Source: Megamonas hypermegale (GTDB lineage: Bacteria > Bacillota > Negativicutes > Selenomonadales > Selenomonadaceae). From it: 30,922 nucleotides of DNA. The notes under the pieces were generated by a model that saw nothing but the letters and a program-made list of their open reading frames with translations, was not told where the DNA came from and ran no database searches. Where the stretch lies: contig DCFC01000001.1 of the NCBI GenBank assembly GCA_002314325.1, positions 26,870-57,791 on the forward strand, read 5' to 3'. Positions 1,417 to 30,922 of the stretch are shown here, one piece after another; within the stretch, counting starts at the first letter, position 1, and each line of letters starts with the position of its first letter. The position numbers and the translations under genes were made by a program.

Positions 1417-1860
1417 GTTCATTTTTCTTTTGAGATTAAAAGAAAAACGAACCAAAAAGAAAAAATCTTTTAACGTTTCGCTTTCGCTGCACTGGGCAAG
1501 CCTTCGCAACTTTTCTTTATGAACATACAGTACAACGGTTCGAAACATTTGGAATTTGGCTCGTGCCTTCTATTTCCAGCAGGAACCTAATTTGAGCTGT
1601 TGATACTGTAATTAGCTAGTCATACTAAATTTTTGTCTGCGTTGAATATTTTCACGGTAGCTTTAGCTATTAAGAAAACAATTTTTTAACTCTGTTTTTA
1701 GTTCAAATGTTTGAGCGAAGCGAGTTTTTGAACGTTAGAGTTAAAAAATTGTTTTCTTAAAGTGAAAATATTTTAGCAGTGCGCGAACTTAAGAGTTTCT
1801 TTTTGGGTACTTCTTCTTTGCTCAACAAAGAAAAAGTACCTGGTGCAATTACATTGCACC
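1417..1860 (+). repeat. Family A structured dispersed repeat, copy 1
   Basis: A 444-bp non-coding element between the dehydrogenase stop and the transporter gene, also found at 13003-13501 and from 30576 to the window edge. In order it holds: a hairpin GTTCATTTTTCTTTT/AAAAGAAAAACGAAC at 1417-1452; a conserved central block with GCACTGGGCAAGCCTTCGCA and AATTTGGCTCGTGCCTTC; a long perfect 24-bp stem (1670-1693 with 1737-1760) capped by an inner GTTCAAA/TTTGAAC stem and a GAGCGAAGCGAG loop; a hairpin GGTACTTCTTCTTTG/CAAAGAAAAAGTACC at 1806-1840; and a last hairpin GGTGCAAT-tac-ATTGCACC at 1842-1860. Compared with the other copies it lacks a roughly 45-bp module carrying one extra hairpin. Its function is unknown. 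Confidence 0.9.
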
Positions 1861-1914
1861 AAACTAATAAATTTAATATTTATAATATTATTATTTTTTA
1901 GAGGAGGATATTTT

Positions 1915-5423: not shown

Positions 5424-5454
5424 AATAACAACACATATATACACTATTAAAAAA

Positions 5455-5535
5455 CCACTAGGGGAACCGTACGGTTGAGAAGTTAGAAACTGACCCTTAG
5501 AACCTGACATGGCTAATACCAGCGTAGGGAAGTGG
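5455..5535 (+). promoter_or_regulatory. TPP riboswitch (THI element) aptamer
   Basis: A canonical thiamine pyrophosphate aptamer. P1 is CCACT (5455-5459) with AGTGG (5531-5535). The conserved core segments ACTAGGGG, TTGAGA, ACCCTTAGAACCTGA, ATACCAGCGTAGGGAAGT are all present in the right order. An expression platform follows. AAGTGGCAAAC (5530-5540) can pair with GTTTGCGACTT (5555-5565) at 10 of 11 positions as an antiterminator that consumes the 3' strand of P1. When TPP stabilises P1 the terminator at 5550-5585 should form, so this is a transcriptional OFF switch for thiC. Confidence 0.97.
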
Positions 5536-5549
5536 CAAACGGAAATCAC

Positions 5550-5585
5550 AGCCGGTTTGCGACTTGCAGACCGGCTTTTTATTTT
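5550..5585 (+). terminator. thiC leader: Riboswitch-controlled intrinsic terminator
   Basis: AGCCGGT (5550-5556) pairs perfectly with ACCGGCT (5570-5576), extended inward by TTGC/GCAG around a GACTT loop, followed by a T-rich tract. Its left half overlaps the antiterminator partner, which makes the two folds mutually exclusive. Confidence 0.93.
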
Positions 5586-5619
5586 CCCTACATACATTAA
5601 TTTTTTAGGAGGACATCTC

Positions 5620-6924
5620 ATGACAATGACGCAAATGCAGGCTGCCAGAGCCGGCAAAATCACTGATGAAATGAAAATCGTGGCACAGGAAGAAAAAATG
5701 GATATCAATGTTCTGAAAGAACGTGTAGCTAACGGAACAATTGCCATCTGTGCCAATATCAACCATAAAAATCTGCATCCGTACGGCGTAGGTGAAGGCC
5801 TTTGCACGAAAGTAAATGCCAACATCGGCACATCGAGCGCCTTTCCCGACCCGGAACCGGAAATTGAAAAACTCAATATCGCCATAGCTGCCGGTGCTCA
5901 TTCCGTAATGGACTTAAGTACGGGCAACAATATCGACGCTTCTCGCCGCGCCATTTTGGATAATTCCACTGTCATGGTCGGCACAGTGCCGATTTATCAG
6001 GCAACTGTTACAGCCATTAAAGAACGCGGTGCCGTTGTCAAAATGACGGAAGACGACCTGCTTCACACAATCGAAAAACAGGCTAAAGACGGCGCTGACT
6101 TCATGACCATTCACTGCGGCGTTACGATGGACGTCATCAACCGCATGCGCGCCGAAGGCCGCTATATGGACGTTGTCAGCCGCGGCGGTTCGTTTATCAC
6201 CGGCTGGATGCTCTACAACGAAAAGAACAATCCGCTTTATGAACGCTATGACGATATCCTCGATATCTGCGCCAAATACGACGTAACCATGAGTCTCGGC
6301 GACGGTCTGCGTCCAGGCTGCCTTGCCGACGCTACCGACCATGCGCAAATTCAGGAGCTCCTAAATCTCGGCGGACTCGTAAAACGCGCCTGGGACAGAG
6401 GCGTTCAGGTAATGGTGGAAGGCCCGGGCCACGTGCCGTTTGACCAGATTGCCACTAATATGAAATTGCAGAAAAGCCTCTGCCATAATGCTCCGTTTTA
6501 TGTACTCGGCCCGCTCGTAACAGATGTTGCGCCGGGATATGACCATATCACGGCCGCTATCGGCGGAACAATGGCTGCCGCTAACGGTGCTGATTTCCTC
6601 TGCTATGTAACTCCGGCTGAACATCTTGCCCTGCCGAATAATCAGGACGTAAAAGACGGCGTAATCGTAACACGCATCGCCGCTCATGCCGCTGATATCG
6701 TCAAAGGCGTACCGGGTGCTAAAGATTGGGATTTGCAAATGGCAAAAGCCCGCAAACAGCTCGACTGGGAAGCTCAGCTCAATCTCGCCATCGACCCGCA
6801 GACAGCCCGCGAAAAACGCGCCTCCCGCAATCCGGAAGGTACGACCGCATGCTCCATGTGCGGCGACTACTGCGCAGTGGAAATCGTCAACAAATATCTC
6901 GGTTCGACTATCGAGCACTGCTAA
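5620..6924 (+). CDS. thiC: Phosphomethylpyrimidine synthase ThiC
   Basis: A 434-residue ThiC, the non-canonical radical SAM enzyme that converts aminoimidazole ribotide to HMP phosphate for thiamine. This is the short form without the N-terminal extension of proteobacterial and plant enzymes. Conserved blocks include NANIGTS, the MDLSTG segment, [28 protein letters not shown] and the C-terminal cluster motif. The cysteines are C411, C414 and C418 (CSMCGDYC), a CX2CX3C spacing, one residue shorter than the CX2CX4C described for the long-form enzymes. The ATG at 5620 follows AGGAGGA at 6 bp; an upstream in-frame extension would run through the riboswitch and is rejected. It is controlled by the TPP riboswitch and ended by a strong hairpin at 6961. 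Confidence 0.97.
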
Positions 6925-9638: not shown

Positions 9639-9702
9639 TGTATCAGCTAGTTCATCAAAGCAGTATAATACTTTATATTCGTTCGATGTTTTACTAGCAC
9701 AA
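9639..9702. repeat. Family B palindromic repeat, copy 2 (half-element)
   Basis: About 64 bp that keeps both ends (TATCAGCTAGTT on the left, TTTTACTAGCACA on the right) but only one arm of the stem (GCAGTATAATACTTTATATT at 9660-9679) with part of the loop inverted relative to copy 3. It looks like an internal deletion of the full element. It starts 11 bp past the stop of the CMD gene and lies in the upstream region of the DUF4405 gene. Confidence 0.75.
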
Positions 9703-13002: not shown

Positions 13003-13501
13003 GTTCATTTTTCTTTTGAAAGGTCAAAAGAAAAACGAACCAAAAATCACCTAAAGGTATAACAGGCTCTAATTACTAAAGTAATAAGAGTCTGTAAAAA
13101 AATCCTTTTAACGTTTCGCTACCGCTGCACTGGGCAAGCCTTCGCAGCTCTTCATAAAAATAGACAGTACAACGGCTCAAAATATTCGGAATTTGGCTCG
13201 TGCCTTCTAATTTCAGTTGAAAACCAAATTGAGTTGTTGCTATATTAATTTGCTAATCATGCTAAAATTATCATCCACATTTAGAGTATTTTCACGATAG
13301 CTTTAGCTATTAAAAATAAAATTTATTAGATGTGCTTTTAGTTCAAATGTTTGAGCGTAAGCGAGTTTTTGAACGTTACAGCTAATAAATTTTATTTTTA
13401 AAGTGAAAATCTCTAGTGGGCTACGAACTAAAGCGTCTTCTTTTTGGGTACTTTTTCTTTGCGCAACAAAGAAAAAGTACCTGGTGCAATTACATTGCAC
13501 C
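13003..13501 (+). repeat. Family A structured dispersed repeat, copy 2 (complete)
   Basis: A 499-bp complete copy in the spacer between the LysR terminator and the DUF362 gene. It has the 5' hairpin (13003-13040), an extra hairpin module absent from copy 1 (13062-13095), the conserved central block, a long stem (13310-13329 with 13382-13401, perfect over 20 bp), a perfect 15-bp hairpin GGTACTTTTTCTTTG/CAAAGAAAAAGTACC (13447-13481) and the GGTGCAAT-tac-ATTGCACC hairpin (13483-13501). At least six positions of the long stem differ from copy 1 on both strands so that pairing is kept. Short reading frames crossing it are not conserved as proteins. Confidence 0.92.
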
Positions 13502-13505
13502 AAAT

Positions 13506-17382: not shown

Positions 17383-17491
17383 CGTGTATATTTTAATTTT
17401 AGAGATACTTTATAAGCATTTTTTAAAATGAAATCTAAGTATTAGACAGCCTTTTCCGTCGAATTTTATACTATATATAGAAAATCCATTA

Positions 17492-17606
17492 TGCTAGTTG
17501 ATTTTCTATAGCAGTATAACACTTTATATTTAGTGAGGTTAAGTGACAACATCGAGCGAATATAAAGTATTATACTGCTGGCTACAGACTCAATATTTTA
17601 CTAGCA
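17492..17606. repeat. Family B palindromic repeat, copy 3 (complete)
   Basis: A 115-bp element between the divergent cupin and ABM-protein genes. The ends are inverted repeats TGCTAGT (17492-17498) and ACTAGCA (17600-17606). Inside, a 20-bp arm beginning GCAGTATAACAC at 17511 pairs with the arm ending TATTATACTGC at 17579, with one mismatch, around a loop containing GGTTAAGTGACAACATCGAGC. The sequence ATATAGAAAAT occurs on both sides (17475-17485 and 17616-17626), not directly abutting the ends. Confidence 0.85.
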
Positions 17607-19692: not shown

Positions 19693-20118
19693 TTAGCCAA
19701 CATCTGTTTTTGTAGCAACAAGACGAGCCTTTGCGCGTGCCATAGCTGCACGGGCACGAAGCGTATCAATGTCAATATGCACTTCCGGATTTTTATTAAA
19801 TTCCTCCAGACGTTTTTTGGCACGTTCATATGCTCTTTTAGCTCTGTTTATGTCAATTTCAATCGGAAGTTCAGCTGCACTTGCCAATACGATGATTTTA
19901 TCCGGCTGCACTTCCATGAAACCGCCGCTGACTGCAATGAGATTTTCCGTTCCGTCAATCAGCGCTTTCATAGCATGAGGCAAAAGCCCAGCCAAAAGTG
20001 GAGCGTGTTTCGGCAGTATGCCGAGGTCGCCGCCGATTGAACGCACGATAAGCATATCTATATCAGCAGAATATACTACTTTGTTGGGAGAAATAATTTC
20101 CAGCTTTATTTTAGCCAT
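19693..20118 (-). CDS. atpC: F1Fo ATP synthase subunit epsilon
   Basis: A 141-residue epsilon subunit with the N-terminal beta-sandwich (IKLEIISPNKVVYSADIDML, then GDLGILPKHAPLLAGL) and a full C-terminal two-helix domain (residues about 90-141, IDINRAKRAYERAKKRLEE and ARAAMARAKARL) that can brake ATP hydrolysis. It sits 3 bp after atpD, is last in the operon and is followed by the terminator at 19633-19673. Confidence 0.97.
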   Translation of the reverse strand: MAKIKLEIISPNKVVYSADIDMLIVRSIGGDLGILPKHAPLLAGLLPHAMKALIDGTENLIAVSGGFMEVQPDKIIVLASAAELPIEIDINRAKRAYERAKKRLEEFNKNPEVHIDIDTLRARAAMARAKARLVATKTDVG

Positions 20119-20121
20119 AAA

Positions 20122-21534
<1,413 letters not shown>

Positions 21535-21546
21535 TTAGAAACCTCC

Positions 21547-22398
21547 TTACTTCAGAGCTTCCGCGCCACCCACGATTTCAGTAATTTCGCGAGTAATGCC
21601 AGCCTGACGTACTTTATTATAATGCAAATCAAGTTTAGAGATGAGTTCTTCAGCATTATCTGTTGCATTGCTCATCGCATTCATACGTGAACTGAGTTCA
21701 CTGGCTGCTGACTGTAACAGCGAAGCATATATCATCGTGACAATATACTGCGGCAGCAAGTAGCCGAGCACTTCCTGCGCATTCGGTTCATAAATGTATT
21801 CAGCAGCAATCTCCGTATGAGAGGTCTTCGGTGCTGTAAACGGCAGTAATTTTATTACCTGTGGCACTGCCGAAATGGCAGATATAAACTTTGTATATAC
21901 CAGATATACTTCTTTATAATTGCCTTCGGCAAAACGTTCGATAACATCAAGCGCTATCTGACGCGCATTCTGATAATCCGGACGTTCCGTAAAGCCCATA
22001 TAGGAATTTACGATGTCAAATCCGCGCGGCGTGAAATATTCCTTTGCACGGCGGCCGACGGTTACAATAGAAGTATTCGCTTTATCTTTAATATGCGCCA
22101 TCGTTTCTTTGAATACATTACTTGCATAAGCACCAGCAAGACCTTTATCCGAAGCTAAAACAATATATAAAGTTTTACCTTCTTCACGTACTTCCAGCAG
22201 AGGATGTGAAAAACTTCCTGCATTAGAGGCTACATCGGCAATAACCTCATACATTTTTTCAGCATAAGGTCGGTTGGATACGGCCGCTTCCTGAGCACGG
22301 CGCAAACGGGCAGCAGCAACCATTTTCATGGCTTTAGTGATTTGCTGTGTGTTTTTTACGCTTTTTATTCTGCGGCGTATGTCCTGCAAACTAGCCAA
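21547..22398 (-). CDS. atpG: F1Fo ATP synthase subunit gamma
   Basis: A 283-residue central rotor shaft. The N-terminal helix is standard (MASLQDIRRRIKSVKNTQQI, then TKAMKMVAAARLRRAQ), as is the C-terminal helix ending in RQAGITREITEIVGGAEAL. The start codon is TTG at 22398, with GCGAGGTGA upstream; the N-terminus produced matches the family exactly, so the rare start is well supported. It sits 17 bp after atpA and 12 bp before atpD. Confidence 0.97.
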   Translation of the reverse strand: MASLQDIRRRIKSVKNTQQITKAMKMVAAARLRRAQEAAVSNRPYAEKMYEVIADVASNAGSFSHPLLEVREEGKTLYIVLASDKGLAGAYASNVFKETMAHIKDKANTSIVTVGRRAKEYFTPRGFDIVNSYMGFTERPDYQNARQIALDVIERFAEGNYKEVYLVYTKFISAISAVPQVIKLLPFTAPKTSHTEIAAEYIYEPNAQEVLGYLLPQYIVTMIYASLLQSAASELSSRMNAMSNATDNAEELISKLDLHYNKVRQAGITREITEIVGGAEALK

Positions 22399-22415
22399 TT
22401 AAATCACCTCGCTGC

Positions 22416-23930
22416 TTATTTATTATATGAATATGTGGATTTAAATTCTTCAATAGATTTATTGATGGATGCTTCCAGCGCATCATCGAGTTTCTTCTGC
22501 TCAGCGATTGTCTGACCGACTTCCGGATGATTGGAATTCATGAATTTGAGGAAATCTCTCTGGAAGTTGACAACCTGGTCAACAGGAATATCCGTCAAGA
22601 AACCGCGTACAGCTGTGTAAATTACAAGCACCTGTTCTTCAACCTTGAGCGGGGAATACTGTGCCTGTTTCAATGTTTCAACCATGCGCACGCCGCGGTC
22701 GAGCTGTTCTTTCGTCGCTTTGTCAAGGTCGGAACCGAACTGCGCAAATGCCGCAAGTTCACGATACTGAGCAAGGTCAAGACGCATACGGCCCGCAATC
22801 TGTTTCATAGCTTTAATCTGGGCGCTGCCGCCTACACGCGATACGGAAAGACCTACGTCGATAGCCGGACGGATACCAGAGTAGAATGCTTCCGTCTGGA
22901 GCATAATCTGACCGTCTGTGATGGAAATAACGTTTGTCGGGATATAACCGGATACGTCGCCTGCCAATGTTTCGATAATCGGAAGCGCCGTAATGGAACC
23001 GCCGCCAAGTTCGTCATTGAGTTTTGCAGCACGTTCAAGCAAACGGGAATGTAAGTAGAATACGTCCCCAGGATATGCTTCACGTCCCGGCGGTCTGCGC
23101 AGAAGCAAGCTCATTGCGCGGTAAGCCGTTGCATGTTTGGAAAGGTCATCATATACGCAGAGTACATGTTTGCCCTGATACATGAAGTGTTCACCCATGG
23201 CAACACCGGAATACGGCGCCATGTACTGAAGCGGTGCGCTGTCAGCAGCCGTTGCCGCTACTACGATTGTATAATCCATTGCGCCGTGGTCTTCAAAAGT
23301 TTTAACAACGCGGGCTACAGTGGATGCTTTCTGACCGATGGCTACATAAATACAGATACAGTTCTGACCTTTCTGATTGAGAATTGTATCTACAGCAATA
23401 GCCGTTTTGCCTGTACCGCGGTCACCGATGATAAGTTCGCGCTGTCCGCGGCCAATCGGCACGAGAGCGTCGATAGCCTTAATACCGGTCTGAAGCGGTT
23501 CTTTAACCGATTTTCTATCCGCAATACCCGGAGCCGGATATTCAACCGGACGAGTCTGCGTCGTGTGAATAGCGCCTTTTCCGTCAATCGGACGGCCGAG
23601 AGCATCGACAACGCGGCCAATCATAGCTTCGCCGACCGGCACCTGCATGATTTTGCCCGTACGTTTTACGATGTCGCCTTCTTTGATTTTCGTTTCGCCG
23701 CCCAATAAAACAGCGCCGACATTGTCCTGTTCAAGGTTCAGGACCATACCATATATATCATTACCAAAGTCGAGCAGTTCTCCTGCCATCGCTTTGTCTA
23801 ATCCATGAATATGTGCAATACCATCACCGATTTCAATAACAGTACCAACATCATCAACATTTAAATCAACATTGTAGTTTTTAATCTGTTCTTTGATAAT
23901 GGCTGTTATTTCTTCTGGATTCATTTTCAT
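22416..23930 (-). CDS. atpA: F1Fo ATP synthase subunit alpha
   Basis: A 504-residue non-catalytic nucleotide-binding subunit. The P-loop is GDRGTGKT at residues 169-176; most alpha subunits read GDRQTGKT, so Gln172 is replaced by Gly. The arginine-finger region is intact ([20 protein letters not shown]), and the [18 protein letters not shown] and [20 protein letters not shown] blocks are conserved. The ATG at 23930 is used; another Met two codons later is possible, and the Shine-Dalgarno site (GGGGTGA) is rather far away. It lies between atpH and atpG. Confidence 0.97.
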
Positions 23931-23958
23931 AACGACTCTGTCACCCCACTTAAATAAC

Positions 23959-24498
23959 TTAATTTGCCATTAACTGCTTTTGTAAAGATTTAATCTTGCT
24001 GGTTACGCTGCCATCAATCAATTTATCGCCTATCTTCACGACGACGCCGCCGATGATAGACTTGTCAATATGCGTTTTCAGCTGAATTTGTTTGCCGGTA
24101 ATAGCTTCTAATTTTGCAGTTAAGGCATCCTGCTGTTTTTCATTCAAAACAGCCGCAGTAGTAACATGAGCTACTGCAATATTTAAAACTTCATTAGACA
24201 GAGCTTGATATTCACCGACGATTTCTTCGATTATAGTAATGCGACGTTTATCCACCAGCAATAATATAAAATTATGCACTGATTTTTCGATATCATCACC
24301 GAAAATTCTGTTTAGCAGTTCCTTTTTCGCTTTCGGCTGAATTTGCGGATTGCCCATAAAAGCTCGCAGTGCCGGCTGATTGGCAAAAAGCTGTCTGATT
24401 TCCTCGAGCTGCTTGCCGTATTCAACTAGTTTGCCTTCTTCCTGAGCAAGCTCAAACATTGCCACAGCGTATTTTTTTGCTAACTGTAAATTCAGCAT
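23959..24498 (-). CDS. atpH: F1Fo ATP synthase subunit delta
   Basis: A 179-residue OSCP/delta subunit, the stator cap joining the b subunits to alpha. The N-terminal helical domain starts [20 protein letters not shown], and the C-terminal domain has the family signature [20 protein letters not shown], then [15 protein letters not shown]. Its ATG overlaps the end of atpF by 7 nt, indicating translational coupling. Confidence 0.96.
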
Positions 24499-24995
24499 GG
24501 CAATCCACCTATTTTATCTTTATCTAATTGGTCAATAAAGTCGCTGACCATTTTTTCATTTGCTTTGTTATCCATATTGGCAGCAATGATTTTGCCGGCT
24601 GCCTGCATGGACAAAGCCACCATTTCTGCGCGAAGCTGCATAGCTGCGCGGTCGCGTTCTCTAGCGATATCTTCTTTTGCGGCTTTCCGCATCTGTTCGA
24701 TTTCACGTTTCGTTTCAGCCACACTGGCATCACGTTCTTCCTGAGCGCGTTTCATTGCTTTGTCCACAATTTCCTGCGCTTTAATGCGTGCGTCAGCCAG
24801 CTGTTTGTTATATTCATCGAGCAATGCTTTGGCCTTTTTTTCATCTGCTTCTGCGGCATCAATGCTCTTAGCGATTTTTTCTTCACGAGCTTTGAGCATT
24901 TTCATAACTGGCTTATATGCCACTGCTCTTAAAATCACTACTAAAATAAGAAAGTTAAGAACCTGAGCCACAAGAGTCATATTGATATCAATCAA
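24492..24995 (-). CDS. atpF: F1Fo ATP synthase subunit b
   Basis: A 167-residue stator stalk subunit. There is one N-terminal transmembrane helix (TLVAQVLNFLILVVILRAVAY), followed by a long charged amphipathic coiled-coil helix rich in Lys, Glu, Ala and Arg. The start is taken as TTG at 24995, 7 bp after AGGGGGC; an ATG five codons later (24980) is the alternative and would still leave the membrane helix complete. The C-terminus overlaps atpH. Confidence 0.95.
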   Translation of the reverse strand: MIDINMTLVAQVLNFLILVVILRAVAYKPVMKMLKAREEKIAKSIDAAEADEKKAKALLDEYNKQLADARIKAQEIVDKAMKRAQEERDASVAETKREIEQMRKAAKEDIARERDRAAMQLRAEMVALSMQAAGKIIAANMDNKANEKMVSDFIDQLDKDKIGGLPC

Positions 24996-25032
24996 TTTAT
25001 TGCCCCCTTATGCCAAACATCAAACACCAAAA

Positions 25033-25284
25033 TTACTGAATGAGCGGGTTAGCATAAAGCATAATCAAGGCAATAACTGTTGCGATGATAGGCATAGCTT
25101 CGATTAAACCTACGGAAATGAGTGTGTTCATGAACAAAGTATTTTTAGCTTCCGGCTGACGAGCGATACCTTCAATGAATTTAGAAGTAACGAGACCATC
25201 ACCAATACCTGCACCGATAGAAGCAAGACCCATCGTAATACCTGCACCAATCAATGCTGCCATAACCATAATTGCGTTTTCCAT
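25033..25284 (-). CDS. atpE: F1Fo ATP synthase subunit c
   Basis: An 83-residue hairpin of two membrane helices that forms the rotor ring. The polar loop is ARQPEAK (residues 41-47). The ion-binding carboxylate in helix 2 is Glu62 (GLIEAMPII). In helix 1 the position that is Gln32 in the Na+-binding Ilyobacter ring is Asp29 here (GIGDGL), so the site appears to have two carboxylates; the Ser that follows the Glu in Na+ rings is Ala63. The coupling ion cannot be settled from sequence. Confidence 0.97.
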   Translation of the reverse strand: MENAIMVMAALIGAGITMGLASIGAGIGDGLVTSKFIEGIARQPEAKNTLFMNTLISVGLIEAMPIIATVIALIMLYANPLIQ

Positions 25285-25319
25285 AGAAATAAATCCTCCT
25301 TAGATTTTAAAAATATTAA

Positions 25320-25994
25320 TTAATGATTTTCATCGTCTTTCATAGCATTAGCTAAGTAAGACATAGAGAGCATAGTAAAAATAAATGCTTGAACTGCACC
25401 AATGAATAAACTGAATGCAAGCCAAACAACACTAGGCACCGGCATCCATATTGGCACCAGCAGAAGCAAGATTATGATTAAGATTTCCCCTGCCAGAATA
25501 TTACCAAATAGACGGAAAGCAAGTGTAATTGGTTTTGCTATTTCTTCAATCAGATTGATAATAACAAACGGAGCTACCGGCTGGAAGAAATGTTTTATAT
25601 AATTGAAACCTTTATAATAAAGACCTAATACATGCAACATTACTATTACCAACAGCGCCAGACCCAAAGTCGTATTCAGATCGTTTGTCGGCGATGCCAA
25701 CGTCGGTATAAGCCCTATCCAGTTGGATACCAATAAGAACAGAAACAGCGTGATTAAAAACGGAGCCACAAGCTGTCCGCGCGAACCGATTGTATTGCCA
25801 ATCTGTTCATTTAGCCAGACAATTACCATTTCGATTACATTCTGCCAACCGGAAGGAACCATTTTCAGGCCTCGCGTCGCCAAAAATGCAATGATGATGA
25901 CGATTGCCATTGCCAGCCATGTCATTTCTAACGTTTGAATGTTAAACTGCATGCCAGCAAAAGTGACTACTTCACGCACACCGATTTCATGCAT
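25320..25994 (-). CDS. atpB: F1Fo ATP synthase subunit a
   Basis: A 224-residue membrane stator subunit that forms the ion half-channels against the c ring. The essential arginine is in the conserved segment KPITLAFRLFGNILAGE of the penultimate helix region, and the last helices carry AFSLFIGAVQAFIFTMLSMSYL. The ATG at 25994 is preferred; an in-frame GTG at 26003 has no binding site. The GGGG close to the ATG is a poor site, but the ATG overlaps the stop of a tiny upstream reading frame (ATGCATGA), which could supply coupling. Confidence 0.96.
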   Translation of the reverse strand: MHEIGVREVVTFAGMQFNIQTLEMTWLAMAIVIIIAFLATRGLKMVPSGWQNVIEMVIVWLNEQIGNTIGSRGQLVAPFLITLFLFLLVSNWIGLIPTLASPTNDLNTTLGLALLVIVMLHVLGLYYKGFNYIKHFFQPVAPFVIINLIEEIAKPITLAFRLFGNILAGEILIIILLLLVPIWMPVPSVVWLAFSLFIGAVQAFIFTMLSMSYLANAMKDDENH

Positions 25995-26105
25995 TTTCCC
26001 CACTGCTGCTTACAAAGTCCATAAGTAACAGTGTCCTCACCTCTCTTTACTTTATATTTTTGCCGGAAAACCGGCTATATGTAGATAATGCCTGACAAAT
26101 AGGCA

Positions 26106-26486
26106 TTATTCCATATTTTTGTGATAAACAAATATCGCCAAGTGTATCATGTATACAATCATCGCCAGGAAAAAACCGCCGACCGCCGCAAAAAACAGTT
26201 CTTCCGAACGCATTATGGCAGCCCGCAAGACTATAAAAATTATTAATAGACGCATTATCAGACTGAGCCACATCTGCCCTTTGGCCTTGCCGACGCTAAG
26301 GTGCGCCGCTTTCCACGTGCGGTAAACCATGACCCAGATACAGATTGCAGCCAGAAGATATCCCGTAAACACTCCCGTCAGGAGGTACAGCTTCTCATTC
26401 ACCGCTAAAGATGCGGCGATTATAATTGTACAAATCAAAATCTGCAGCAGCAGTTTCCTGCCTCGTACAGATAAAAATTCCTTCAT
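26106..26486 (-). CDS. atpI: ATP synthase subunit I (AtpI-like)
   Basis: A 126-residue membrane protein with four predicted helices, first in the ATP synthase operon, matching ATP synthase I (PF03899) in position and topology: LLLQILICTIIIAASLAV, LLTGVFTGYLLAAICIWVMV, MWLSLIMRLLIIFIVL and FFAAVGGFFLAMIVYMIHLA. In other bacteria this protein helps assemble the c ring or import Mg2+. Similarity at residue level is low, as is usual for AtpI. AGGAGT lies 10 bp before the ATG. A -10 TATACT at 26531-26526 (minus) may mark the operon promoter, though its -35 is weak. Confidence 0.8.
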   Translation of the reverse strand: MKEFLSVRGRKLLLQILICTIIIAASLAVNEKLYLLTGVFTGYLLAAICIWVMVYRTWKAAHLSVGKAKGQMWLSLIMRLLIIFIVLRAAIMRSEELFFAAVGGFFLAMIVYMIHLAIFVYHKNME

Positions 26487-26618
26487 TATAATTTATACTC
26501 CTAAAATCGCTAAATTGCCTGTTCAAGTATATCTTATCAAATCTGCACCAAAATAAAAAGACCTATTATCAATATTCTTCATTTATTTTTAACAAAACTT
26601 AATATAAATTTTTTTTAT

Positions 26619-27641
26619 TTATTGATTACTATTTATAATGGTTCTAACCGGGAACGGTATTTCGATATTTTCCTTGCGGAATTCCTTTGTAATAGCCTTG
26701 ATAAACTCATGTTTGACGATGTACTGATTGGTAAATTCGCTCACGTGCATTATCACGTTGAAATTTATGCTGGAGTCGGCAAACAGATTGTAGCGCACGA
26801 CCGGTTCCACGGTCACGGACGGGTCAATTTTGGCCAGAATTTCCTTGCCCACTTTTATGCAGACAGCCTCCACTTTTTCCAAATCGCTGTCATAACTTAC
26901 GCCGATGGCTATGCTGACCGTTATATCCTGCCGCGGCATACTGTAATTGGTGATAATCGCCTTCGATATATTTTGGTTCGGCACGACGACAACATTGTTG
27001 CTCACCGACTGAAGCGTCGTAAATCGCCACGTTATATCCGTTACCTTGCCTTCCTCACCGGTGCTGAGACGCACATAATCGTCCAGACGTATCTGCTTGG
27101 ACAAAATAAGGTGCATACCGGAAAAAACATTGGCAAGCGTATCCTGAAGTGCCAGAGCCACCGCCATACCGCCGACCCCCAAAGCTGTCAGGATAGGTGC
27201 GACGGAAATGCCGTAATACTGCAATACTATCAATACGCCCATAGCATAGATTACAAAATTGATTACATTGTTGAGCAGCGTCGTCTTCGGCATGTTCTGG
27301 TCGGAACGCATTGTATAAAAGTCGATGACACCGGAAAGCGTTCTGGAAACAACGCGCGTCAATGTGAACACAATCACTGCAAACAATAAATATGAAAGCA
27401 GCTTATTTACCGTCGGCGGTATATCAAGTGAATTTATTGTCCAGTATAAACCTACGCCCGAACACCAGGAAATAGGCAGACCTCTGAGCGCATTTACAAA
27501 AATGTATTGCCAAGAGCCCTGATTTATATTACTATGCAGATAGCGGTTAATCAGTCTGTTGAGCAAAAAGCCTATGATTAATGCGCCGACCTGTATACAG
27601 ACAGGAATTAACAATATATCGAACAGATATTCAAAATTCAC
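26619..27641 (-). CDS. Small-conductance mechanosensitive channel, MscS family
   Basis: A 340-residue MscS-type channel that opens under membrane tension to release osmolytes. There are about five helices; the pore-lining helix is GVGGMAVALALQDTLANVFSG with the Gly/Ala packing pattern, followed by HLILSKQIRLDDYVRL, the beta domain (EEGKVTDITWRFTTLQSV, then VVVPNQNISKAIITNYS) and the alpha/beta cytoplasmic domain. It is longer than E. coli MscS (286) at the N-terminus, with extra helices. The start is GTG at 27641 with GGGAGGG 8 bp upstream. It has its own promoter at 27674-27702 and is divergent from the GNAT gene. Confidence 0.93.
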   Translation of the reverse strand: MNFEYLFDILLIPVCIQVGALIIGFLLNRLINRYLHSNINQGSWQYIFVNALRGLPISWCSGVGLYWTINSLDIPPTVNKLLSYLLFAVIVFTLTRVVSRTLSGVIDFYTMRSDQNMPKTTLLNNVINFVIYAMGVLIVLQYYGISVAPILTALGVGGMAVALALQDTLANVFSGMHLILSKQIRLDDYVRLSTGEEGKVTDITWRFTTLQSVSNNVVVVPNQNISKAIITNYSMPRQDITVSIAIGVSYDSDLEKVEAVCIKVGKEILAKIDPSVTVEPVVRYNLFADSSINFNVIMHVSEFTNQYIVKHEFIKAITKEFRKENIEIPFPVRTIINSNQ

Positions 27642-27673
27642 TTATATCCCTCCCAAATTATCATACTAAAAAA

Positions 27674-27702
27674 AGTATACTATAATTTTGGTGAACTGTC
27701 AG
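27674..27702 (-). promoter_or_regulatory. Predicted promoter of the MscS gene
   Basis: Minus strand: CTGACA (27702-27697), 17-bp spacer, TATACT (27679-27674). It lies about 33 bp before the GTG start. Confidence 0.65.
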
Positions 27703-27787
27703 TTAAAAATCGAAAAAGTTAACAAAAAAATTTAATAAACGTAGCTAAAAATGTTAACTGGTTAATTATATTAAAGGTGGTAATATT

Positions 27788-28318
27788 ATGGAAAAAATAA
27801 TAAAAACAGGCAAAAGACTGAGATTTCGTCAGGCAACCGAAGCCGATATGGATTATATCATGCAGGTGGAATACATTCCGGAAAACGCCAAATACGTCAT
27901 TCCCTATACCCGCGAAGTCCACATGCAGACGCTCGATACAAAATCCGCTACACATTTAATCATTGAAACAATCGACGGGAAAGAAAAAGTCGGCTTCCTG
28001 ATGATAGCAGGGCTTGACAATCCGTCCAAAGAAATCGAATGGACACGCATCATCCTCGATGTAAAAGGCAAAGGCTACGGTCAGGAAACGCTGGAAATGC
28101 TCAAATCGTGGGCGTTCGATGATTTAAAATTCCACAGAGCATGGCTCGACTGCAAAGACTACAACAGCCGTGCGCTCCATGTCTACGAAAAAGCCGGTCT
28201 TGTCCGCGAAGGCTTAATCCGCGAAACAATTTTGACCGACGGCGTTTATGAAAATCTCATCATTCTCGGCATACTGGACCGCGAATATTTTGCGCAGAAG
28301 CAGTCCCAGCAAAAATAA
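27788..28318 (+). CDS. GNAT family N-acetyltransferase
   Basis: A 176-residue acetyl-CoA-dependent acetyltransferase of the RimJ/RimL-like (Acetyltransf_3) branch. It opens with RLRFRQATEADMDYIMQVE; motif A with the CoA pyrophosphate loop is VKGKGYGQETLEMLKSWAF, and the C-terminal part is the typical DCKDYNSRALHVYEKAGLVREGLIRE. AAAGGTGG precedes the ATG. The upstream spacer has two GTTAAC palindromes (27718 and 27753) that might be a regulator site. The acceptor substrate (protein N-terminus, polyamine or other amine) cannot be told. Confidence 0.92.
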   Translation: MEKIIKTGKRLRFRQATEADMDYIMQVEYIPENAKYVIPYTREVHMQTLDTKSATHLIIETIDGKEKVGFLMIAGLDNPSKEIEWTRIILDVKGKGYGQETLEMLKSWAFDDLKFHRAWLDCKDYNSRALHVYEKAGLVREGLIRETILTDGVYENLIILGILDREYFAQKQSQQK

Positions 28319-28330
28319 ATCGCAAATGTC

Positions 28331-28359
28331 TTGTCAAAAAATATTTTTTTGTGTATCAT
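28331..28359 (+). promoter_or_regulatory. Predicted promoter of the Mn2+ riboswitch-UPF0016 unit
   Basis: TTGTCA (28331-28336) and TATCAT (28354-28359) with a 17-bp spacer, about 40 bp before the aptamer. Confidence 0.65.
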
Positions 28360-28397
28360 ATCTTTTGTGTATATATGATTTTATTTGGTATATCGGC

Positions 28398-28487
28398 TAA
28401 AAGGGAGTAGCTATTAGAATAAGTCAACATACTGATGCAGCGCATCTGGCTTATTCGTTGATGCAACCATCAACAGCGAGACTTTTG
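28398..28487 (+). promoter_or_regulatory. yybP-ykoY (Mn2+) riboswitch aptamer
   Basis: The hallmark internal-loop segments of the yybP-ykoY family are present: AAAAGGGAGTAGC at the 5' side, AAGTCAACATACTG in the first arm, and GATGCAACCATCAACAGCGAGAC-type sequence on the 3' side. P1 is formed by AAAAG (28399-28403) and CTTTT (28482-28486). The class senses Mn2+, and the downstream gene is a UPF0016 Mn exporter homologue, a classic association. The terminator that follows shares CTTTT with P1, so metal binding should hold P1 and stop the terminator from forming, an ON switch. Confidence 0.93.
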
Positions 28488-28538
28488 GTACAGCTCAATC
28501 ATGCCCGGCATGAAACTGTACTGAAAGTCTTTTCTTTT
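28480..28538 (+). terminator. Riboswitch-controlled terminator before the UPF0016 gene
   Basis: GACTTTTGGTACAG (28480-28493) pairs with CTGTACTGAAAGTC (28516-28529) over 14 positions, including two G-U pairs, with an inner CATGCC/GGCATG hairpin and a tail TTTTCTTTTT. The left arm reuses the 3' strand of aptamer P1. Confidence 0.92.
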
Positions 28539-28578
28539 TGCCTGTGTATATATTTAAATTTAAGGAGAGATTTTCTGT

Positions 28579-29154
28579 ATGGTTATTTTTTCTACAGCTT
28601 TCATCATGGTGGTTCTGGCTGAAATGGGCGATAAGACGCAGCTTCTGGCTATGGCTTTTGCCGCCAAGTATCCCTGGAAAAAAGTAATGCTCGGCGTACT
28701 GTTCGCCACTTTGCTAAATCATTTTGTTGCCATCGCCGCCGGTATTTATCTCAATACGCTCGTACCGCAGCATATTGTGGAAATCGTCGCTTCCGTCGCG
28801 TTCATCGTTTTCGGCTTGTGGATTTTAAAAGACGACGAGCTGGGCAATGAGGCGGAAAAAAACCGCTTCAGCATTTTCTGGACAGTCGCTATCGCTTTCT
28901 TCCTCGCTGAAATGGGGGACAAGACGCAGCTTGCCACCGTAGCGCTTTCCGCACAAATCGGCAGCGACCTTCTCACCATCTTAATAGGCACGACAGCCGG
29001 TATGCTCGTTGCCGACGGCATCGGTATCGCTCTCGGCGCGGCGCTGCACAAATACGTTCCGGATAGAGTCGTTAAAAAAATTGCTTCCGGTATCTTTATT
29101 TTATTCGGTATTTTAGGTATTCTTAATAGTATGGGTATCTTAAATCTGTATTAA
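28579..29154 (+). CDS. UPF0016/GDT1 family Mn2+ exporter
   Basis: A 191-residue, six-helix membrane protein of the UPF0016 (TMEM165/GDT1/MneA) family, cation exporters that remove Mn2+ or exchange Ca2+/Mn2+. It consists of two homologous halves, each with the diagnostic E-x-G-D-K-T motif: EMGDKTQLL at residues 15-23 and EMGDKTQLA at 111-119. TAAGGAGAGA precedes the ATG. The yybP-ykoY riboswitch in its leader points to manganese as substrate and inducer. No terminator is obvious before the DedA gene 41 bp further on, so DedA and LarB may share the transcript. Confidence 0.96.
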   Translation: MVIFSTAFIMVVLAEMGDKTQLLAMAFAAKYPWKKVMLGVLFATLLNHFVAIAAGIYLNTLVPQHIVEIVASVAFIVFGLWILKDDELGNEAEKNRFSIFWTVAIAFFLAEMGDKTQLATVALSAQIGSDLLTILIGTTAGMLVADGIGIALGAALHKYVPDRVVKKIASGIFILFGILGILNSMGILNLY

Positions 29155-29195
29155 GATTAACTCCGTACCATTTTACAAATGAAAGGATAATATTA

Positions 29196-29813
29196 ATGGA
29201 ACAATTTTCAACGATGTTTTTGAGTTTTATCGACACTTGGGGCTATGTCGCCGTAGCCGTGCTTATGGGACTTGAAAATGCCTGCATACCAATCCCGAGC
29301 GAACTTATCCTTGGTTTTGCGGGATATCTGATTTCCGCCGGCAGAATGGAATTTTTCCATGCCACTGTCGCCGGTATGATTGGCGGTATGGTAGGTTCAA
29401 TCGTTACGTACTACGTCGGCTCGCACGGCGGCAGACCGTTTATCGACCGCTACGGAAAATACTTTTTCATGAAAAAATCGCATGTGGATACAGCCCAGCG
29501 CTGGTTTGACCGCTATGGCATCAAGGCCGTATTCTTCAGCCGCCTGCTGCCGGTAGTCCGCACTTTCATCTCTCTGCCGGCCGGTTTTGCCCGCGTCAAC
29601 ATGAAAAAATTCATCGTTTATACATTCATCGGCTCACTGCCGTGGACAATGCTGATTTTATACATCGGCTGGGTACTCGGCGACAACTGGAAAAAAATGC
29701 TCGATGTCGGCCATGAAGCAAGCCTCGCCGTCGCTACTTTCCTCGTGCTTGTCTGCCTGTTTTATTTTATCCGCTACAAACGCAATCAACGCAAGAAAAA
29801 AGGTCTTAAATAA
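29196..29813 (+). CDS. DedA family membrane protein
   Basis: A 205-residue DedA/VTT-domain inner-membrane protein. Conserved features are the re-entrant ENACIPIPSELILGFAGYL segment near residues 27-45, the GSIVTYYVGSHGG helix, and FFSRLLPVVRTFISLPAG, with the family F-x-R-x-x-P-x-x-R pattern, before NMKKFIVYTFIGSLPW. Some DedA proteins recycle undecaprenyl phosphate across the membrane or support proton-motive force. Its stop overlaps the larB start (TAATG), indicating translational coupling. An AAAGGA site precedes the ATG. Confidence 0.95.
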   Translation: MEQFSTMFLSFIDTWGYVAVAVLMGLENACIPIPSELILGFAGYLISAGRMEFFHATVAGMIGGMVGSIVTYYVGSHGGRPFIDRYGKYFFMKKSHVDTAQRWFDRYGIKAVFFSRLLPVVRTFISLPAGFARVNMKKFIVYTFIGSLPWTMLILYIGWVLGDNWKKMLDVGHEASLAVATFLVLVCLFYFIRYKRNQRKKKGLK

Positions 29814-30568
29814 TGAACAACAACGAATTACTCGATTTACTCCATTCCTATAAACAGGGAAATATCAATGAACAAACGGTTCTTGAAAAAATTCAGAACG
29901 ACAGTTTCGAAGATATCGGCTTTGCTAAAGTCGACCACAGCAGAGCTAGCCGCCAGGGTTTTCCGGAAGTCATCTACTGCGCCGGTAAAACAAATCAGCA
30001 GATAGCCGATATCTTCCTCGATTTATTCAATCACAGCGAAAAGAACATCATCGCTTCACGTGCCACACAAGAAAATTATGCCGCCGTTCTGGAAAAAGTG
30101 CCGACTGCACTGTATGATGAAGCAGCGCGCATAATTTACGTACGGCGCGACAATACGCCTGTTGACGATAAACGGTTCATCCTCGTACTGACTGCCGGAA
30201 CAAGCGATATTCCCGTTGCCCGCGAAGCCGGTCTTACAGCCGAACTCATGGGCAATAAAGTCGAATACTGCTTCGATGTCGGCGTGGCCGGTATTCACCG
30301 TCTGCTCGCCCGCAAAAACTTAATCGACAGCGCCAATGTCATCATCGTCGCCGCCGGTATGGAGGGCGCACTTGCCAGCGTCGTCGGCGGTCTTGCCAAT
30401 AAACCGGTAATCGCCGTACCGACAAGCGTAGGCTACGGCGCATCATTCGGCGGACTTTCCGCCCTTTTAGCCATGCTCAACAGCTGCGCCGCCGGAGTCG
30501 CCGTAATGAATATTGACAACGGTTTCGGCGCAGGACGCCTTGCCAGCATGATTAACCATATGAGATAA
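29813..30568 (+). CDS. larB: Nickel pincer cofactor biosynthesis protein LarB
   Basis: A 251-residue LarB. LarB carboxylates nicotinic acid adenine dinucleotide and cleaves off AMP, the first step toward the nickel-pincer nucleotide of lactate racemase and related enzymes. The C-terminal half resembles PurE: VLTAGTSDIPVAREA, DVGVAGIHRLLA, IIVAAGMEGALASVVGGLAN and VPTSVGYGASFGGLSALLAM. The N-terminal part carries the LarB-type DHSRASRQGFPEVIYCAGK segment. Its start shares one base with the DedA stop. larC, larE and larA are not in the window; repeat A copy 3 starts 8 bp after the stop, so they could lie beyond it or elsewhere. Confidence 0.95.
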   Translation: MNNNELLDLLHSYKQGNINEQTVLEKIQNDSFEDIGFAKVDHSRASRQGFPEVIYCAGKTNQQIADIFLDLFNHSEKNIIASRATQENYAAVLEKVPTALYDEAARIIYVRRDNTPVDDKRFILVLTAGTSDIPVAREAGLTAELMGNKVEYCFDVGVAGIHRLLARKNLIDSANVIIVAAGMEGALASVVGGLANKPVIAVPTSVGYGASFGGLSALLAMLNSCAAGVAVMNIDNGFGAGRLASMINHMR

Positions 30569-30575
30569 GAGATAT

Positions 30576-30922
30576 GTTCATTTTTCTTTGAAGTCAAAAG
30601 AAAAACGAACCAAAAATCACCTAAAGGTATAACAGGCTCTAATTACTAAAGTAATAAGGGCCTGTAAAAAACCCTTTTAACGTTTCGCTATCGCTGCACT
30701 GGGCGAGCCTTTGTGGCTCTTATATATGTACAAACGGTAAAACGGCTCGAAACGTTTGGAATTTGGCTCGTGCCTTTTGTTCTCGGTGGGAATTTATTTT
30801 GAGCTGTTGACACTGTAATTTGCAAGTTATGCTAAAATTTTTTCTGCGTTGGAGATTTTTATGGTAGCTTTAGCTATTAAGAAAATAGTTTTTTAGCTCT
30901 GTTTTTAGTTTAAATGTTTGAG
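30576..30922 (+). repeat. Family A structured dispersed repeat, copy 3 (cut by window end)
   Basis: The first 347 bp of a third copy, 8 bp after the larB stop. It has the 5' hairpin, the extra hairpin module (30632-30665) shared with copy 2 and the central conserved block, and ends in the left arm and loop start of the long central stem. In the extra hairpin the stem position that is G-U in copy 2 is G-C here, a pairing-preserving change. The long-stem left arm reads like copy 1 with a few changes; its partner lies outside the window. Confidence 0.9.

Follow-up and report, generated by a model that had tools for sequence, protein, structure and literature searches.

The repeat that begins at position 13,003 of the window (the whole stretch of 30,922 nucleotides of Megamonas hypermegale DNA that was analysed) raises the question of whether it is a structured RNA, a mobile element recognized through its hairpins, or something else. 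A first-pass annotation had described three copies in the same orientation. This was borne out, as the copies could be aligned over their length (alignment A1; Table 1). When the sequence was read directly, the long stem of copy 1 was free of mismatches for 24 bp (1670-1693 with 1737-1760) and that of copy 2 for 20 bp, as had been claimed, and the six pairs that differ between these copies were all compensated. The same annotation had found no terminal repeat. This was wrong, since the left and right terminal hairpins of copy 2 are one module, mutually inverted. It had also overlooked a nested segment that is present in copies 2 and 3 and missing from copy 1.

Table 1. Coordinates of the repeat, its parts and its other copies in the window.
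Feature	Position	Strand	Basis or remark
Copy 2, whole element (the repeat under study)	13003-13504	+	Alignment A1
Left terminal hairpin of copy 2, in inverse orientation to the right hairpin	13003-13040	+	Sequence
Nested small hairpin, copies 2 and 3 only	13063-13094	+	Alignment A1
Three-way-junction unit of copy 2	13277-13432	+	Covariance model R1, pair counts
Outer stem of the copy-2 unit	13288-13295/13403-13410	+	
Small hairpin of the copy-2 unit	13296-13311	+	
Long stem of the copy-2 unit	13310-13329/13382-13401	+	
Conserved tip of the copy-2 long stem	13348-13367	+	Four-base loop GTAA
Right terminal hairpin of copy 2	13447-13481	+	Sequence
Second right hairpin, TGGTGCAATTACATTGCACCA	13482-13502	+	Shared by copies 1 and 2 and G042 (L081)
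Copy 1, whole element	1417-1862	+	Alignment A1; unit 1637-1791, tip at 1708
Copy 3, ends at the window edge	30576-30922	+	Alignment A1; unit from 30844

Each element of the window, and each element of the related genome G042, contains one unit. In this unit, an outer stem and a small hairpin meet a long stem at a three-way junction, and the long stem ends in the near-invariant tip TGTYTGARC-NNN-GYGAGTTT. Thirty-three units were aligned (alignment A2; 2 from the window, 28 from the genome G041 and 3 from G042), leaving out copy 3 as a window-edge fragment, a partial element of G042, and units whose tip diverges further. The covariance model R1, built from A2 with copy 2 included, gave the copy-2 unit 125.1 bits (E 1.4e-29). 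Copy 1, also a training sequence of the model, scored 141.5 bits, and copy 3, whose 3′ end is missing at the window edge, 56.9 bits.

For the 32 named pairs of A2, standard pairs were found in 92.9% of the 1056 cells, and in 37-51% when the partners were slid by 1-3 columns as a control. Both sides had changed in 22 of the 32 pairs, and the covariation score was reached by none of 500 shuffles; these counts are inflated by kinship among the rows. The number of further pair types was not above that of the shuffles (42, where the shuffles averaged 46.1). In the long stem, standard changes on one side only were very rare beside two-sided ones. Covariation of the stem across these units was far above the shuffled and slid controls. 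It may be noted that a tandem G-A/A-G mismatch recurs at columns 56-57/111-112 in many units of G041, and that other units pair normally there.

From the paired substitutions, selection on folding had been concluded in the first-pass annotation. Maintenance of the fold is strongly supported, but compensated changes are no proof of selection in themselves, since template-switch correction of quasipalindromes can also preserve the complementarity of the arms. According to parts of two reports, template-switch mutation increases the identity between the arms of imperfect inverted repeats (PMC7202029, PMC8604942).

Folding energies were compared with those of shuffled sequences. As RNA, the stem region of copy 1 had a z of -6.6 (0 of 200 shuffles equally good) and the whole copy a z of -10.6 (0 of 100). 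The stem region folded as DNA gave a z of -7.2. The opposite strand of the copy folded equally well (z = -10.7), and therefore the strand is not told by energy alone.

The same tip was found in three genomes (G145, G147, and G148) that we infer to be Selenomonas-like because they are listed close to G003, to which the Selenomonas ruminantium locus L005 belongs. Here the tip stands atop hairpins of about 250 nt, composed of several long, nearly perfect stems with short conserved linkers between them; one of these (L267) folds at -153 kcal/mol with a z of -15. At one locus, adjoining the same gene, the element is kept in four genomes (alignment A3). When the pairs of the G148 fold were followed at this locus, 32 of 93 showed more than one standard form among the four genomes, the cells comprising 304 Watson-Crick pairs, 22 G-U, 7 A-C, 34 other mismatches, and 5 gapped. 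Such turnover of pairs indicates that the fold was kept while the sequence changed in place.

The distribution of the repeat was examined among relatives. The AtpG protein of the window shares 71% identity with that of Propionispira raffinosivorans, the highest value among the 80 loci listed, by which the window was placed in the Selenomonadaceae. The closest genome found was G042, with 84% DNA identity over window positions 20001-30568. G042 has four elements, including the partial one, and an element there is 85% alike to copy 2 over its length. G041 has many diverged elements. Its fetched stretches held 18 tip groups, of which 10 consisted of two outward units and 8 of one, a count that would overlook any partner whose tip is degenerate. 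Clusters of units were seen in G041 at ~1.860-1.868 Mb (six tips in 8 kb; L171) and ~2.259-2.267 Mb (five in 7 kb; L172). When copy 2 was used as a DNA query and few candidates were scored in each genome, 46 of 189 genomes of the family had a match (E<=0.001). Among the matches listed, most covered a terminal hairpin only, and most of the 46 genomes have the region of the right hairpin in common. The covariance-model search that had been proposed for the repeat located R1 units in 22 of the 189 genomes (16 candidates scored per genome). In separate observations, a terminal-type hairpin without a tip unit was found in G150 and G145 (L085, L087, ~1500-1700), beside another structured stretch and flanked by the same two genes in both; it is probably a related, simpler repeat.

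Across the class, the exact tip pattern occurred in 62 of 380 genomes, at up to 34 per genome (G157, G303), and the distribution was patchy. The pattern read backwards, as a control, occurred twice in the 380. Among 47 genomes reached through their AtpG loci, 10 of which (G303 included) were already among the 380, three had the tip. The other 37 contributed two carriers, G411 (8 tips) and G401 (1 tip), whose loci (L064 and L052) belong by title to metagenome-assembled genomes of Desulfuromonadales, so that mis-binning is possible. The longest perfect stem run adjoining these nine tips was 5-10 bp, and folds of the three tips with a run of at least 9 bp had a stem below the tip, with a short hairpin of another kind farther out.

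The exact left-half pattern had no match in GTDB r220 contigs or IMG/VR. As it is present in G042, the contig collection searched lacks the nearest relatives of the window. The tip pattern was found in 50 contigs of IMG/VR, four of them with an adjoining perfect stem run of at least 9 bp. These four (L336, L340, L353, L356; runs of 9-10 bp) could be genuine units, perhaps within host-derived DNA. The remaining IMG/VR matches look like chance, and viral carriers are not claimed. Blastn with copy 2 gave no match among plasmids and phages, nor did two related units among plasmids.

We examined the arrangement of the units and their placement relative to genes, using mechanical gene calls on the fetched stretches. 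Wherever a fetched group had two tips less than 480 nt apart, the units pointed outward (19 of 19); same-strand neighbours and runs of three also occur in the genome listings. By gene context, the 92 groups lay between tandem genes in 46 cases, convergent genes in 32, and divergent genes in 6, with 8 undetermined. Single units between tandem genes followed the sense of the genes in 12 cases and the opposite sense in 22. The gene on the outer side turned its 3′ end toward the unit in 70 of 106 cases; among the Selenomonas-like genomes the count was 31 of 38, at a median of 114 nt from the tip. For the inner side the value was 61 of 105, which is not significant.

At the sites of copies 2 and 3, the orthologous loci of G042 are collinear with the window and lack the element. 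In its place, the copy-2 site has an unrelated stretch of ~50-60 bp, and the copy-3 site a terminator-like hairpin. No target-site duplication was found at the six elements for which both ends could be placed (exact junction match 0-3 nt); in four further attempts, one or both ends escaped placement. No clear T run was seen by eye after the outer hairpins.

To decide which strand and which molecule carries the fold, mismatches and loops were counted on the tip strand. Isolated stem mismatches in 109 units of six locus groups comprised 50 G-T, 10 A-C, and 27 others (binomial p 1.6e-7, a value that ignores relatedness). The Selenomonas-like group contributed all 10 A-C and 31 of the 50 G-T; the remaining five groups had 19 G-T and no A-C. 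A count over a wider window in 82 units went in the same direction (G-T 37, A-C 11, other 34). The closing pair of the tip was GC in 95 of 111 cases, AT in 12, GT in 4, and AC in none. The terminal hairpins caught by pattern in the window, G041, and G042, when read outward, had one mismatch in 13 of 14 cases, always G-T, and none in the other. Taken together, the excess of G-T over A-C, the closing pairs, and the terminal hairpins point to the outward strand as the functional one, which fits an RNA or a strand-specific folded DNA.

The loop of the tip was GNA in 89 of 109 units, ANA in 12, and different in 8; copy 2, with its four-base loop, is among the exceptions. The sequence GC-GNA-GC is known to form a very stable mini-hairpin in DNA, as described in one report (PMC4686876), and the commonest loop thus follows a rule of DNA, favoring that molecule. 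The tolerance of G-U itself favors RNA, with which the covariation is also consistent. A single RNA is disfavored by the outward pairing of units and by the lack of a fixed sense relative to tandem genes.

We searched for an enzyme that could mobilize the repeat. Matches to the Y1 transposase family (PF01797) numbered 14 in G041, 4 in G042, and none in G145, which nevertheless has 13 tips. IS200-type mobilization was rejected, the ends being unrelated to the element in the 8 of 18 PF01797 copies of G041 and G042 that were resolved. Likewise, no RAYT (Y1) flanked by the repeat was found in these genomes: G145 had none, and the resolved copies of G041 and G042 had other ends. The search also covered G001, G060, G084, G112, and G113, all without the tip. 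Hence no mobilizing enzyme was found among the carriers examined (G041, G042, and G145, for PF01797).

The Rfam check suggested in the first-pass annotation gave no match at gathering score, either for the element or for any of 11 related loci; at E<=5, copy 2 had 19 matches, all below the cut-off. Over the whole window, the gathering threshold was passed only by a TPP riboswitch elsewhere (RF00059, 76.4 bits, 5450-5547, + strand). It precedes, and overlaps the mechanical start of, a large open reading frame (5509-6924) that we take to be thiC. A second, unrelated inverted-repeat family was also noticed in the window, at 17484-17606 and 9659-9692 (AGCAGTATAA.ACTTTATATT.. with its inverse); the former stretch has blastn matches in G042 at 287677 and 1814308 as well.

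Of the known systems, REP/REPIN/BIME repeats (TnpA-REP/RAYT) resemble the element in that they are non-coding hairpin units occurring in many copies between genes, either singly or as inverted doublets. REP sequences carry a conserved tetranucleotide, in most cases GTAG, immediately 5′ of the palindrome. In A2, the interior of the small hairpin, which is the place counted here rather than the 5′ flank of the outer stem, had GTAG in 18 of 33 rows and GTAA in 15. As in REPINs, close pairs are inverted doublets (outward in every fetched case). In contrast to the 20-50 nt palindrome of REP, the unit is about 150 nt long in the window copies and reaches about 250 nt in G145, G147, and G148, with several long stems of free sequence, and the carriers examined have no linked RAYT. 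Because of its size and of this lack, we did not file it as a REP or REPIN. By analogy, the element may be said to work like a REPIN, its intergenic, non-coding hairpin units being single or in inverted doublets and strand-specific. The folded single strand of REP is recognized strand-specifically, according to parts of two reports (PMC8266576; PMC3116915).

Elements of the IS200/IS605 group have hairpin ends, make no target duplication, and are recognized as single strands. Their non-autonomous derivatives, as part of one account presents them (PMC8266576), are like the repeat in these respects, and differ in that its ends are not shared with the resolved Y1 copies of G041 and G042 and that G145 lacks PF01797. 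MITEs such as Chunjie of Geobacter uraniireducens and QMITE2 of Coxiella are likewise short and non-coding, with inverted ends and stable folds, in the relevant part of one report (PMC10969869); inverted terminal hairpins were found in the window copies and in the elements of G041. Unlike MITEs, the repeat has a conserved tip and covarying stems, shows no target duplication at the six elements, and has no parent transposon that we found. The d(GCGNAGC) DNA mini-hairpin shares the GC-GNA-GC tip of most units (PMC4686876, in part) but is a structural motif rather than a family of mobile elements. In Geobacter, multicopy intergenic sequences also form palindromic families, some paired on opposite strands (PMC2700814, PMC2996986). 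They were rejected as the identity of the repeat, as those named in the parts of these reports that were compared, by description, do not have its tip.

The first-pass annotation had left the choice between a structured RNA and a hairpin-recognized mobile element. Strong support for a maintained fold comes from the covariation within and between genomes, from the locus shared among four genomes, and from the strand-specific preference for G-T/U over A-C. The mobile half of the proposal fits better than the RNA half because of the patchy distribution, the two empty orthologous sites, the outward inverted pairs, and the absence of a fixed sense relative to neighbours. We give about an even chance to the reading that the repeat belongs to a dispersed intergenic family, made of a covarying hairpin unit and a short outer hairpin, and is a REPIN-like, non-autonomous mobile element recognized as a single strand. 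By this mechanism, the folded single DNA strand of the unit is predicted to be recognized by an enzyme acting in trans, and copies would move through the genome as folded single-stranded DNA. The tip and the terminal hairpins would be the recognition signals, and the bias toward 3′ ends of genes would mark where insertion is tolerated. Matching of the stems would be upheld by selection on recognition, perhaps aided by template-switch repair between the arms.

Several results argue against the mobile reading. No mobilizing enzyme was found in the carriers examined, and no target duplication at the six elements; neither an insertion event nor an excised form of the element was seen. The empty copy-2 site of G042 is not clean, and the locus shared by four genomes means long vertical persistence. 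The tolerance of G-T and the covariation also fit RNA, and one genome group supplies all the A-C and most of the G-T mismatches. A bolder form of the mobile reading, which we hold only tentatively, is that the units constitute an undescribed kind of element in Negativicutes and Desulfuromonadales: giant GNA-tipped single-stranded DNA units, moved as outward inverted pairs by an enzyme other than Y1.

The main rival, which we consider rather unlikely, is a structured RNA, either a small RNA or an element of mRNA 3′ ends, transcribed from the tip strand and selected for its fold. It would account for the covariation in A2 and at the shared locus, the one-strand preference for G-T/U, stems far more stable than shuffles, and the position at gene 3′ ends. 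Covarying stems, which are sought in a structured RNA and were found here, are equally expected of a selected DNA hairpin. An RNA is harder to reconcile with outward inverted pairs, in which one unit falls on the opposite strand, and with single units that run antisense to tandem genes more often than sense. Rfam held no match, the element is absent from two orthologous sites, and the commonest loop follows the DNA mini-hairpin rule.

An ordinary MITE of some transposase, no longer selected and with arms matched by template-switch correction of quasipalindromes, is improbable. Inverted terminal hairpins, the absence of a protein, and the intergenic position agree with it, as do the rarity of one-sided changes in the long stem and the extension of arm identity by template switching. 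Yet such an element predicts neither the conserved tip and linkers nor the one-strand excess of G-T over A-C, and no target duplication was seen at the six elements. Least probable is a host element, immobile at present, that serves to end or protect mRNA as a giant bidirectional terminator or 3′-end stabilizer, as the convergent excess, the nearby 3′ ends on the outer side, and the terminator-like hairpin replacing copy 3 in G042 are set against the patchy distribution, the independence of orientation from tandem genes, and the lack of a clear T run.

If the REPIN-like reading is true, the repeat would be a large and elaborate counterpart of REP/REPIN, widespread in a bacterial class and not found described in the open-access literature searched. 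The family would then provide dozens of covarying copies in a genome, both single units and pairs, at sites that are shared as well as at sites that are not. With these, it may be asked how folded single-stranded DNA is recognized, how the arms are kept matched, and which enzyme moves such repeats. If the repeat is an RNA instead, it would represent a new family of multi-copy RNAs whose covariation is very strong.
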